A stretch of DNA of 10,000 nt from Candidatus Aminicenantota bacterium. GTDB taxonomy: Bacteria; Acidobacteriota; Aminicenantia; JAMOAD01. The DNA lies in the NCBI GenBank assembly GCA_027061995.1, contig JAMOUT010000035.1, positions 1 through 10,000 of the forward strand, read 5' to 3'. Made by a program: the position numbers and the translations under genes. Positions 2,810-7,273 of the stretch are shown here, in pieces (the stretch's first letter is position 1; every line of letters begins with the position of its first letter). The notes beneath the pieces are model-generated. The model searched no databases and was not told where the DNA came from. It worked only from the letters and a program-made list of their open reading frames with translations.

Positions 2810-2836
2810 TAAAAAATATTATAAAACTATTTTTTA
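2810..2836 (-). terminator. AT-only hairpin at the end of kdsC
   Basis: On the minus strand a 9-bp perfect stem (TAAAAAATA against TATTTTTTA, plus-strand arms 2828-2836 and 2810-2818, 9-nt loop) straddles the kdsC stop codon, and its 3' arm is a T-run. It is the only candidate terminator for this operon. It contains no G-C pairs, so its strength is doubtful. Confidence 0.25.
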
Positions 2837-3396
2837 TTACTAAAACCCACTATCCATTCATCCTCTTTATTAAAAATATCCAAAATTTCATCATATAAAT
2901 TTTGTGCCTCGAAAATCATGTCAAACACCTCTCTTACAGCTCCTCCGCCGGCAGGTTTTTCCGTCCTATATTTTGAAATCTCCTTTATTTTATAGTGAGC
3001 CTCTTTAACCGCAACAGGAAAACCCACTTTTTTCATTATATTATAATCACCTATATCATCCCCTATATAACATATCTGGTTCTCTTTTAAATCATATTTA
3101 TCAATAAATTTTTTCAATATAGGAAGTTTGTTAAAAACTCCGGTATATACATCCGTAATTTTTAACCTTTTCGCCCTCTCAAGAACATTCTCGGAAACTT
3201 TACCCGTTATTATACCTACTCTTATTCCCACTCTCTGCGCAAGAACAATCCCTGCACCATCTTTAACATCATAACCCTTTATCTCTTCACCCGAAGGAAG
3301 AATATAGAGTTTCCCGTCCGTAAGCGTTCCGTCAACATCCATTAAAACAAGTTTAATATTTCTAACGATATTTTTGATTTCAGAAGGGATTCGCAT
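2827..3396 (-). CDS. kdsC: 3-deoxy-D-manno-octulosonate 8-phosphate phosphatase (KdsC)
   Basis: This 189-residue HAD-superfamily phosphatase releases phosphate from Kdo-8-phosphate to give free Kdo, the sugar that links lipid A to the LPS core; it acts in the cytoplasm as a tetramer. The KdsC signatures are all present: DVDGTLTDG at 20-28 with nucleophile Asp20 and general acid/base Asp22, Thr64 in GIITGK, Lys90 in VFNK, and the metal-binding GDDIGD at 112-117. The subfamily hallmark GGGAVREV (150-157) follows, which separates KdsC from other small HAD enzymes. The length is typical. The ATG lies 2 bp after the stop of the upstream DUF3857-like gene, with GAGGGG about 9 nt before it, so it is the third gene of a tight operon. 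It may belong to the related CMP-sialic/N-acylneuraminate-9-phosphatase type subgroup, but the neighbourhood gives no support for that. Confidence 0.9.
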   Translation of the reverse strand: MRIPSEIKNIVRNIKLVLMDVDGTLTDGKLYILPSGEEIKGYDVKDGAGIVLAQRVGIRVGIITGKVSENVLERAKRLKITDVYTGVFNKLPILKKFIDKYDLKENQICYIGDDIGDYNIMKKVGFPVAVKEAHYKIKEISKYRTEKPAGGGAVREVFDMIFEAQNLYDEILDIFNKEDEWIVGFSNKK

Positions 3397-3398
3397 CT

Positions 3399-5297
3399 CT
3401 ATTTACCCCTCTCAAAAAGGATTGTTTTAAGTTTCCATGTATTGAATTTGTCAAAATCTTTTTTAAATTCTTTATATAACTCTCGGGAAAATATCTTCTT
3501 TTTTATATTAATAACTCTCTCCAAAAGAATTTTACCGTTTTTAAATTCAGCATTGAGATAGAATGAATAATTATCATTATCAATCTTAATCTGTTCGGGA
3601 AGATAGAGAGGTTTAAATCCAAATTCCGAAGATATCTCCCATTTTTCGGAAATTTTAAATCGATAACCGAAAAACAGAGGATATTTTCTCTCTTTTAAAC
3701 TTATCGAATAGGGAAAATTAGTGAAAGAATATGGAACAGACGGAATCGATAAAATGGAAACTTTGCCCTGTTTGACTGAGATACCTTTACCTTTGATTTT
3801 CTGTAAAAGCACAATATTTTTCTTCCTGTTATTAAGATTATCGACTCTATAAGATACTGACATCGCTCCTTCCGAAAAACTACTTGCGGAACTCATGAAA
3901 AATTTGCTTTTATCATCTTTATTTGCGAGAGAAAGAGCTCTTCTTACCATGGAATCAAAAAATCCGTCTGTTTTAACCCGGATATCAGCATTAAATCCCG
4001 TATCTTTTTTTAATATAAGTTTGATTTTACTTTCCACCCGATTTTTTACATTCTCAGGATAGATTATCTTTTCCCATACCACTTTATCCTTAATAATAGC
4101 CAACCCCTCTGTTTTCTCCGAAATTCCCGAATATCCCATTAACCTGTATTCTCCGAAAGGATCAAGATATATTTTTCCATCTTTAAGGGGAACAGCAACC
4201 AATATATATCCGAATTGATCCATAACAACAAGCTCTTTTTCAGGTTTTCTATCCGAAGGAACAAACACAGGATACGGAGCAAAACCTGCAGCTTTAAGTA
4301 TGGAAATCATTAAAGTTGTTTTATCTCTTATATCTCCGTATCCTTTTTTAAGAACAATAGCCGCTTTATGAGGGGTATAACCTACAAGCCCCAAAGGAAG
4401 AGAAACTGATTTTATCCGTTTTGTAATAAAATCATAAATACTATAAAGTTTTTCTCTTTCAGTTCTATCTTTTTTAATAATTTTCTTTGTTTTTGAAATA
4501 ATTGTTTTTTCAGGTTGTGTTGCTTTTTCAAAATCTTTAAAAAGTTCATTAACTTTTGCCTTCCAATTTTTAGAATTTGCCACCACCACATAGGGAGACA
4601 GATAAAAATCGGGAGGTCTGTGTTCTTCAATCTCCAACTTGGAAATATCTTTCATGCTCCATTTATATCCATTATTTTCAATGGAACCAATAATATTTTC
4701 ACCCTTTACTTTATAGAAGAGTTTTTTGGAAGAGGGATAATTTATATTTAAAACTCTTTCTTTTGCGGGGGTATCATTTTGAAAAAGAAAAGTTAATCCG
4801 ATATCCCCGTTTTTATTTTCGCTTGTTTTTATATATTTCATATAAAGAGCATCTTCGGGATCTATATCCTGATAAGAGTAAACTCTGTCAAGTATATCCG
4901 CATAAAGAGAAGCTCCTTGAAGAGAAACAGGTGTAATCGTATTAATAGCTTTACTTTCGACAGAAGTTAACTTTAGAGATTTATTCAAGGTTGTTGCTTC
5001 CACTATTTTGAGGTTTTCCTTGCCTTTTATATATCTTATCTTATAATCACCATAGCGATCTCTTCCCGCTCTATTAAGTATCTGATAAAAATCTATTACC
5101 TTTTTTTCAAGTTTCCGCTCTTTTTCAAGATAATTAAGGTTAAGAGAATAATAAATGGTATAGATGTATGAATTCGGGAAAATCATAGGCGCAACCGATT
5201 TTTTGTATTCTTCAATCAATTTTTTTTCAATCGCAAAACCCGACACAGTAAAACTGACAATAATTAAAAATACTAAAAATATATTTCTCTTTCTCAT
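3399..5297 (-). CDS. Exported DUF3857/transglutaminase-like protein lacking catalytic Cys and His
   Basis: This 632-residue protein starts with a clear signal peptide (MRKRN, then a hydrophobic core to residue 19, probable cleavage after GFA at 20-22), so it should act outside the inner membrane. Residues about 45-240 resemble a DUF3857 beta-rich domain. Residues about 280-385 are a transglutaminase-like fold, and the C-terminal ~200 residues are a beta-rich domain like that of its upstream neighbour. Aligned on the shared PHKA and RDK-x-x-LM segments, the position of the catalytic Cys is Ile323 (GYGDIRDK) and that of the His is Tyr364 (QFGYILVAV), while the Asp is kept (Asp379 in YLDPFGEY). 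The fold therefore appears catalytically dead, and it may serve as a partner or binding protein. Its ATG overlaps the previous gene's TGA by 4 bp (ATGA), with AGGAG (5309-5305) 7 nt before it, indicating translational coupling. Confidence 0.85.
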   Translation of the reverse strand: MRKRNIFLVFLIIVSFTVSGFAIEKKLIEEYKKSVAPMIFPNSYIYTIYYSLNLNYLEKERKLEKKVIDFYQILNRAGRDRYGDYKIRYIKGKENLKIVEATTLNKSLKLTSVESKAINTITPVSLQGASLYADILDRVYSYQDIDPEDALYMKYIKTSENKNGDIGLTFLFQNDTPAKERVLNINYPSSKKLFYKVKGENIIGSIENNGYKWSMKDISKLEIEEHRPPDFYLSPYVVVANSKNWKAKVNELFKDFEKATQPEKTIISKTKKIIKKDRTEREKLYSIYDFITKRIKSVSLPLGLVGYTPHKAAIVLKKGYGDIRDKTTLMISILKAAGFAPYPVFVPSDRKPEKELVVMDQFGYILVAVPLKDGKIYLDPFGEYRLMGYSGISEKTEGLAIIKDKVVWEKIIYPENVKNRVESKIKLILKKDTGFNADIRVKTDGFFDSMVRRALSLANKDDKSKFFMSSASSFSEGAMSVSYRVDNLNNRKKNIVLLQKIKGKGISVKQGKVSILSIPSVPYSFTNFPYSISLKERKYPLFFGYRFKISEKWEISSEFGFKPLYLPEQIKIDNDNYSFYLNAEFKNGKILLERVINIKKKIFSRELYKEFKKDFDKFNTWKLKTILFERGK

Positions 5298-7273
5298 TTA
5301 TTCTCTCCTTTCTCTAAAATTATAAAACTTTTATTGAATTTGTCCATAAGGAGCATCCCCTCTCTTAAATATTGATATTGTTTAGGTGTAATATAGGGGC
5401 TATTTATTTTAAAAATTCTTTTAAAAATTATCTTATTTCCGTTTTTTATAATATTAACACTAAGAATAACAGGACCTTTTTCAAATTTAAAAGAATCGGG
5501 AATAGCTTTTATTTTAAAATTTTCGGGAATCTCTATCTTTTCAACTATCTTTGAACCGAAAGCTGATTGCATATACATAGGGTATTTTCTCTCTGGAAGT
5601 CTTGTAAAATTATATATTACAAGTGAGAAATAGAGATCAGCGGTTGATTTTCCTTCGGGAATCTTCATAAGATAATAATTTCCGAGTTTCTCAAGGAAAT
5701 CGGGAGTTTTTATTTTAAGATAAATCTTATACTGTTTATTTATGTCTTCGGCATTTCCGTATTTTGACTCTAAAATAGTTGTTCCCTGACCTATCGATTG
5801 TATGAGTCTTTTCCATAGAAAATCTCCCATCTTACCGGGTAATTTTTTACCAATCTGTCTTAAAAGCAGATCATAGGTTCCCGAACCTTTTAAATATATT
5901 TCTGAAATAAGTTCCCCTTTATCATCTATTCTTGAATTTGCATTTACAAATCCCATACTTTTATCAGCGGTAAAATCGGGAGTCTTAACAATATCTTTCC
6001 CATTTTCAACAAGATGTAAAACATATTTTCCACCGAGATAAGCTTCTCCGAAATCAGAACTTATTTCAAGGGTCGGGTCCATATACACGAATTTACCCTT
6101 TTTACATTCAACAGCTACAATAGCATGCTCAAAATAGATAGTCGGAACCTCAATATCGGTTTTATGACTAACATTAACTATCACATCTTCAGCATGGATT
6201 CCGGCTATCTTCAACATAGCCACCATTAATATGGATTTATCCCTACAAACACCATATTGTTTATCAAAAGTATATGTAGCTTTATGAGGTTCAATAAATG
6301 CTCCCACATCCATAGATGAACCCATATATCTTATTTTTTGAGATATATACCTGAATATCGCAAGAATCTTTTCTTTTTTTGTTTTTTTATCTTTTATAAG
6401 ATTATTAACGGTTTTCACCATTTTTTCATTTTTATCTATTTTACCTATATTCAGTTCCGCTCCGTATTTTGAAAGTTGTTTCCACTCTTTGAATGTTGAA
6501 ACAACAAGTTTTGTCCCCAAATCAAAAATAGATTCCATCCCTATTTCAGGTTTTAATTGTTTTATTTCATCTCCTTTCCAAATATATTGAACATACCCCC
6601 CTTTTTTAACCTTTTTAAAATCCAACTTACCGTTTTTCACTATATAATTCAAAGGTTTTTCAATAGGAGTTATTATTTTAATTACAGTTTTTTTCAAAGG
6701 GGTAAAAGTCTGAAGAAGGAAAATATCTGAATAATTATTTTTAAGGAGAGGTTTTGAGATTGTTTTTACTTTAAATTCTATACTATCACCAACTTTAACC
6801 GATGGATATTGAACCGATATCTGTCTGAAATTATCATCAAAGATATTCATCTGTTGTGTTGCACCGAGAGTTTGATCTTTAATATTATCTTTAGGAACTT
6901 CGATATAACTTCCGTCAGGATGAATTACCCTTGCAAATTCTATATCTATTTTATTATATCTTTTATGATAAGAGAAATTGTTTTTTTCACCGTATTGTTT
7001 TTTACCCTTTTCGGTAAGAATTTTGATTAATCTATAATCCTCCCTTACAAAAGAACCGTCTTTTTCAACTTTAACCTCTGTTTTATCATAAATAACCACA
7101 GCATCTGCATCACCATTCGCTTTTGAATCCCCCGCCTTATTAATCTGCTTTAGGATTACTACGGATATTTTTTTCTTATTAATTTTCTTTGATAAATCTT
7201 TTGAATATAATGTCCCGAAAACCAAAAACAGAACTAAATTAACCAATAGAATTTTTGATAAATATTTTTTCAT
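5294..7273 (-). CDS. Exported DUF3857 and transglutaminase-like protein with intact triad
   Basis: The 659-residue product begins with a signal peptide (MKKYLSK, hydrophobic core about 8-20, likely cleavage near residue 24), then a DUF3857 domain (about 55-235) with typical KVEKDGS, ILTEKGKKQYG, ARVIHPDGSYIEVP and YPSVKVGDSIEF segments. A transglutaminase-like core follows at about 285-405: Cys343 in QYGVCRDKSILM, His383 in YFEHAIVAV and Asp399 in YMDP form the expected triad. A beta-rich C-terminal domain ends the protein. Families with this architecture are found in many Gram-negative genomes, but the reaction and substrate are not known; protease, amidase or cross-linking activity are all conceivable. 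The start is supported by GAGGTGA (7283-7277) just before the ATG. It is the first gene of an operon with its inactive paralogue and kdsC, and lies 165 bp after the 5S rRNA gene on the same strand. Confidence 0.88.
   Translation of the reverse strand: MKKYLSKILLVNLVLFLVFGTLYSKDLSKKINKKKISVVILKQINKAGDSKANGDADAVVIYDKTEVKVEKDGSFVREDYRLIKILTEKGKKQYGEKNNFSYHKRYNKIDIEFARVIHPDGSYIEVPKDNIKDQTLGATQQMNIFDDNFRQISVQYPSVKVGDSIEFKVKTISKPLLKNNYSDIFLLQTFTPLKKTVIKIITPIEKPLNYIVKNGKLDFKKVKKGGYVQYIWKGDEIKQLKPEIGMESIFDLGTKLVVSTFKEWKQLSKYGAELNIGKIDKNEKMVKTVNNLIKDKKTKKEKILAIFRYISQKIRYMGSSMDVGAFIEPHKATYTFDKQYGVCRDKSILMVAMLKIAGIHAEDVIVNVSHKTDIEVPTIYFEHAIVAVECKKGKFVYMDPTLEISSDFGEAYLGGKYVLHLVENGKDIVKTPDFTADKSMGFVNANSRIDDKGELISEIYLKGSGTYDLLLRQIGKKLPGKMGDFLWKRLIQSIGQGTTILESKYGNAEDINKQYKIYLKIKTPDFLEKLGNYYLMKIPEGKSTADLYFSLVIYNFTRLPERKYPMYMQSAFGSKIVEKIEIPENFKIKAIPDSFKFEKGPVILSVNIIKNGNKIIFKRIFKINSPYITPKQYQYLREGMLLMDKFNKSFIILEKGENK

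Follow-up and report, generated by a model that had tools for sequence, protein, structure and literature searches.

A predicted exported transglutaminase and its triad-less paralogue are encoded by a selectively maintained tandem gene pair

Most of the enzyme-pseudoenzyme pairs known so far are isolated examples, and transglutaminase folds without catalysis have been described in several other proteins. Polymorphic toxins carry inactive N-terminal transglutaminase domains for which a peptide-binding role has been proposed. These domains resemble the protein P0002 described here in being exported and having lost one or more triad residues, but differ in lying within long RHS-repeat toxins, and the passages that deal with them do not describe an adjacent active paralogue (PMC3482391). 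RloB of Pseudomonas aeruginosa is an inactive transglutaminase fused to seven transmembrane helices, and like P0002 it has a periplasm-facing dead transglutaminase domain and is encoded in an operon with a peptidase. Unlike P0002 it is a membrane protein whose partners are an aspartic protease and an ATP-grasp protein; the sections of that report on RloB give it no active paralogue of its own and do not mention DUF3857 or DUF3858 (PMC12239564). Erythrocyte protein 4.2 (EPB42) is a catalytically inactive animal transglutaminase (PMC10318531). It shares with P0002 a transglutaminase fold devoid of catalysis, and the core of P0002 matches PDB 7uzs, which is listed under EPB42, with a Z score of 9.4. 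EPB42 is however eukaryotic, is encoded by a single gene, resides in the erythrocyte ankyrin complex and has no DUF3857. In the literature that we searched on DUF3857, DUF3858, 3KD4/BDI_1141 and transglutaminase pseudoenzymes, a scope outside which most subscription papers fell, an active/dead DUF3857 pair was not described.

The pair lies within the window, that is the whole 10,000-nucleotide stretch of DNA that was analysed, and its features are listed in Table 1. The open reading frame boundaries and the 4-nt ATGA overlap given in a preliminary description of the locus were confirmed. Such an overlap in itself allows only translational coupling and does not establish the near-equal synthesis that the same description had derived from it. 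The ATG of P0002 is preceded by a Shine-Dalgarno-like GGAG of its own (AGAGAAAGGAGAGAATAAATGAGA). Genes for 5S and 23S rRNA are located upstream of P0001 on the same strand. Signal peptides had been claimed for both proteins, and a hydrophobic signal-like segment is visible at each N-terminus, neither with a lipobox Cys; on the strength of these segments both proteins are predicted to be exported. The nearest named relatives of P0001 come from Candidatus Aminicenantes MAGs and one Acidobacteria MAG, and relatives assign the genome to Candidatus Aminicenantes (Acidobacteriota). A third DUF3857 gene, with an intact triad and truncated by a contig end, is present in the 2.36-Mb genome. A single-protein scan of a collection of genome contigs gave no match.

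Table 1 Features of the tandem gene pair and its surroundings in the window
Feature	Position	Strand	Description
P0001 (active-type copy)	5294..7273	minus	659 aa; predicted exported DUF3857-transglutaminase-DUF3858 protein, triad Cys343-His383-Asp399
P0002 (pseudoenzyme copy)	3399..5297	minus	632 aa; predicted exported paralogue, Ile323-Tyr364-Asp379, zero cysteines
ATGA stop/start overlap P0001/P0002	5294..5297	minus	4 nt; GGAG just upstream of P0002 ATG
Catalytic Cys343 codon, P0001	6245..6247	minus	motif GVCRDK
Ile323 codon, P0002 (aligned Cys position)	4329..4331	minus	motif GDIRDK
KdsC/YrbI-subfamily HAD phosphatase (TIGR01670)	2827..3396	minus	2 nt downstream of P0002

P0001 and P0002 are homologous across nearly their full length (almost 600 residues, 26 % identity, E 3e-26), and the motifs PHKA, RDKxxLM and (M/L)DP, which the preliminary description had reported as retained, are found in both. 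Numbering by script set Cys343, His383 and Asp399 of P0001 against Ile323, Tyr364 and Asp379 of P0002, exactly the residues proposed earlier. Judged by the transglutaminase-superfamily criterion the Cys-His-Asp triad is present in P0001 and absent in P0002, and all three residues are invariant in an alignment of ten active sequences of the P0001 type (pair A, below). We also looked for a cysteine of P0002 that could be placed in the active site, and none can be; the protein contains no cysteine at all, so that re-alignment cannot supply a catalytic one. The DUF3857-like N-terminal region and the similar C-terminal domain postulated for both proteins correspond to Pfam families. DUF3857 (PF12969) scores 98 and 66 bits in P0001 and P0002 respectively, both above the curated cut-off of 24.6, while DUF3858 (PF12970; cut-off 27) is found at both C-termini with 28.5 bits in P0002 and a borderline 26.8 in P0001. 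Transglut_core (PF01841; cut-off 23) reaches 45.4 bits in P0001 and, at 20.2 bits, falls just below the cut-off in P0002. Given its homology to P0001 and the match of its core to solved transglutaminase structures, we describe P0002 as a descendant of transglutaminases without an active site and not as a functional member.

The structure model of P0002 (pLDDT 88.8) matches PDB 3KD4 over its full length (Z 26.1, 496 residues), and that of P0001 (pLDDT 80.9) matches it with Z 30.2. The core of P0002 matches solved transglutaminases with Z of about 10, and its N-terminal domain matches the N-terminal domain of M1 aminopeptidases with Z of about 9. By sequence, P0002 matches a single PDB chain, 3KD4 (BDI_1141 of Parabacteroides distasonis), which shares the DUF3857-transglutaminase-DUF3858 fold with both window proteins, although identity to them in structural alignment is only about 14-16 %. 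In Parabacteroides distasonis NZ_OY725779.1 (L105:6899-10454) the protein encoded immediately downstream of a DUF3857 gene with an intact triad matches 3KD4 throughout, and the two genes are separated by a 13-nt gap in contrast to the overlap of the window pair. Named a protease in the PDB, 3KD4 nevertheless has Pro, Thr and Ser at the positions of the triad Cys, His and Asp. 3KD4, deposited as a "putative protease", is thus likewise a dead partner encoded downstream of a gene with an intact triad, which corrects its reading as a protease and assigns it a partner gene.

A search of related genomes for the gene pair found that it recurs, intact copy first and dead copy second. Relatives of P0002 adjoin relatives of P0001 in nine of the related genomes searched, and these neighbours together with the window pair constitute pair A. 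Most pair-A genomes contain a second, distinct tandem pair with the motif GVCKDKA, pair B, which is also ordered intact then dead. In all we assembled 59 adjacent pairs. Four are from a second phylum; the other 55 comprise the window pair, one pair from Parabacteroides and those at Acidobacteriota and MAG loci. The 40 DUF3857 loci from elsewhere in Acidobacteriota were hand-picked from the best-scoring rows and are not a random sample. In 55 of the 59 pairs the upstream copy has Cys, His and Asp and, at a minimum, the His is missing from the downstream copy, both Cys and His being absent from 54 of these 55 dead copies (the exception is L145). Two intact copies side by side were found in none of the 59, and a second copy retaining the triad, which had been looked for, never occurred in the 55 active-first pairs. 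Among the 55 same-strand adjacent pairs outside the second phylum, 51 were intact-then-dead, two dead-then-intact, two dead-then-dead and none intact-then-intact. Every one of the 51 downstream copies lacks Cys and His at the triad positions, with a few very divergent copies having alignment gaps there. The genes overlap by 4 nt in 26 of these 51 pairs and by 1 nt in five (31/51 together), some of the large negative intergenic gaps being due to the ORF caller choosing early starts. With a live-plus-dead pair present in distant bacteria, the dead member is more probably a functional partner than a decayed gene. Many single active copies have no dead partner. The dead copy precedes the active one at two loci, L084 and L103, the former (L084:951-9111) being an array of four DUF3857-transglutaminase genes in which only the third has an intact triad. 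Very large DUF3857-transglutaminase proteins of 1200-1450 aa (L096, L098, L099 and L100) also occur as intact-then-dead tandems.

Within pair A the active and the dead trees share their branching order, and the active and dead distance matrices are correlated with r=0.98 (0 of 5000 permutations as high), an agreement that a common species history would produce by itself. When a balanced set is analysed, a branch with an SH-aLRT of 95.5 has the dead copies of both pair classes on one side, and the AU test rejects a grouping of the active with the dead copies of pair A (p=0.006), indicating that the active/dead split predates the two pair classes. For pair A the same test also rejects a history in which every second copy arose from its own neighbour and was inactivated recently and independently. 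The dead classes A and B were not united in a larger tree containing many long branches, so that the case for a single origin depends on sets that are smaller and better balanced; we regard it as likely, not proven. The partners would then have been passed on jointly while the two pair classes diverged, and this shared descent, like the conserved order and overlap, fits a functional unit. At L103 (L103:1123-9322) DUF3857 proteins of about 1360 aa are encoded in tandem with the dead copy first. Here the dead and active copies are sister sequences, as if this live/dead pair had arisen later and on its own.

Estimates of dN/dS (NG86, seven close genome comparisons) were 0.11-0.26 for the dead copies, not far from the 0.05-0.17 of their active partners; the dead copies are under purifying selection. 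The active P0001-type copy and the maintained pseudoenzyme copy are thus both kept by selection, and the earlier suggestion of a pseudoenzyme kept beside its active copy held up, given these values and the missing triad in the downstream copies. The two halves of pair A differ in where they are conserved. Mean identity in the transglutaminase domain is 74 % among the active copies and 44 % among the dead ones, compared with 51 % and 47 % in DUF3857 and 49 % and 42 % in DUF3858. No part of the active copies is better conserved than the transglutaminase domain, the remainder lying at about 50 %; in the dead copies this does not hold, other parts showing 37-47 %. Lost catalysis with the outer domains retained would give such a pattern. 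The dead copies also evolve faster (mean distance 0.60 against 0.47 for the active ones).

The intact and lost triads, the long-term maintenance, the co-inheritance and the gene order of the pair are established, and P0001 and P0002 very probably constitute one functional unit. Our preferred reading, which we hold somewhat more probable than its alternatives combined, is that the locus encodes an exported cysteine-type transglutaminase/peptidase together with a pseudoenzyme dedicated to it, the two most likely forming a heteromer; direct association of P0001 with P0002 we rate at an even chance. P0001 would act in the periplasm on peptide or amide substrates through its predicted Cys343-His383-Asp399, a catalytic activity that we infer from residues and fold. 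P0002 has the same three-part fold (an M1-aminopeptidase-like beta domain, the transglutaminase core and a C-terminal DUF3858) but is incapable of cysteine catalysis and, made from the overlapping gene, may associate with P0001. Its outer domains, which have remained conserved while the former catalytic domain drifted, could supply substrate binding, positioning or allosteric control. A broader proposal, which we put forward tentatively and consider possible but not probable, is that the DUF3857 transglutaminases of several phyla are ancient obligate periplasmic enzyme-pseudoenzyme heteromers whose two genes are transmitted and duplicated jointly and whose active subunit needs the dead one, 3KD4 being an example of such a dead subunit. 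With its live-then-dead order across at least three phyla and two paralogous pair classes, this single family provides many natural cases in which the purpose of a dead subunit can be studied.

The second phylum, reached through a horse-faeces MAG, contributed four pairs, all intact-then-dead, and some two dozen genes of the dead type that have no intact copy next to them (L149-L152, L154, L156-L172, L174). Most second-phylum genomes with a lone dead-type copy show a single DUF3857 gene, and several of the lone genes are followed directly by genes for an ispE-like GHMP kinase and a MobA-like NTP transferase. Dead-type members therefore need not always have a neighbouring active copy, which speaks against a heteromer that is obligate throughout the family. 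Since dead-type proteins can serve without a neighbour, the main rival to a P0001-P0002 unit is that P0002 functions independently as a secreted binding or structural protein on a dead scaffold, its adjacency to P0001 reflecting shared regulation and an ancient tandem duplication. The proposal of inactive transglutaminase domains as binding modules in other bacterial proteins (PMC3482391, in its treatment of toxin domains) and the faster evolution of the dead copies in pair A are in keeping with this. The lone dead copies however form a clade separate from the paired ones, the close overlap and the gene order are maintained from phylum to phylum, and the partners appear to have stayed together when the two pair classes diverged; we consider independence of P0002 rather unlikely, if well short of negligible. 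In one of the second-phylum pairs (L145:2074-3984) the second copy keeps the Cys and has Ser in place of the His, possibly a half-way state of inactivation.

P0002 could instead be an inhibitor, a substrate decoy or a substrate modified by P0001, roles that close homology, coupled genes and retained outer domains would allow. A loop of P0001 ahead of Cys343 (residues 317-341) was modelled with pLDDT below 50 despite strong sequence conservation, the equivalent region of P0002 being confidently modelled, and this would fit a partner-dependent active site; the low confidence may however merely be an artefact of the ten-sequence alignment, and we judge such roles improbable. We give still less credence to the idea that P0002 retains a different chemistry, one that needs no cysteine, in the cleft of the former active site. 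Asp322, Asp325, Lys326 and Gln361, near the former active site, are invariant among the pair-A dead copies, but their transglutaminase domain contains no invariant Ser, Thr, Cys or His and its conservation has dropped to the level of the remaining protein. Asp345 and Lys346 in the same RDK motif of the active copy are conserved too, so that the invariant residues of the dead copies look structural. That P0002 is a decaying, pseudogene-like duplicate, for which only the loss of Cys and His speaks, is rejected by dN/dS well below 1, and the long open frames in relatives, the confident fold of P0002 and an active/dead split older than the pair classes leave it virtually no probability.

The KdsC-like HAD gene 3′ of the pair is found in the window and at L037-L039, and is confined to the family to which the window belongs. 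The genes that follow the pair vary between families, other lineages having other genes nearby, so that gene context names no substrate; we rejected it as a substrate guide with the KdsC-like neighbour confined in this way. At L037, LpxC is encoded a few genes further on.
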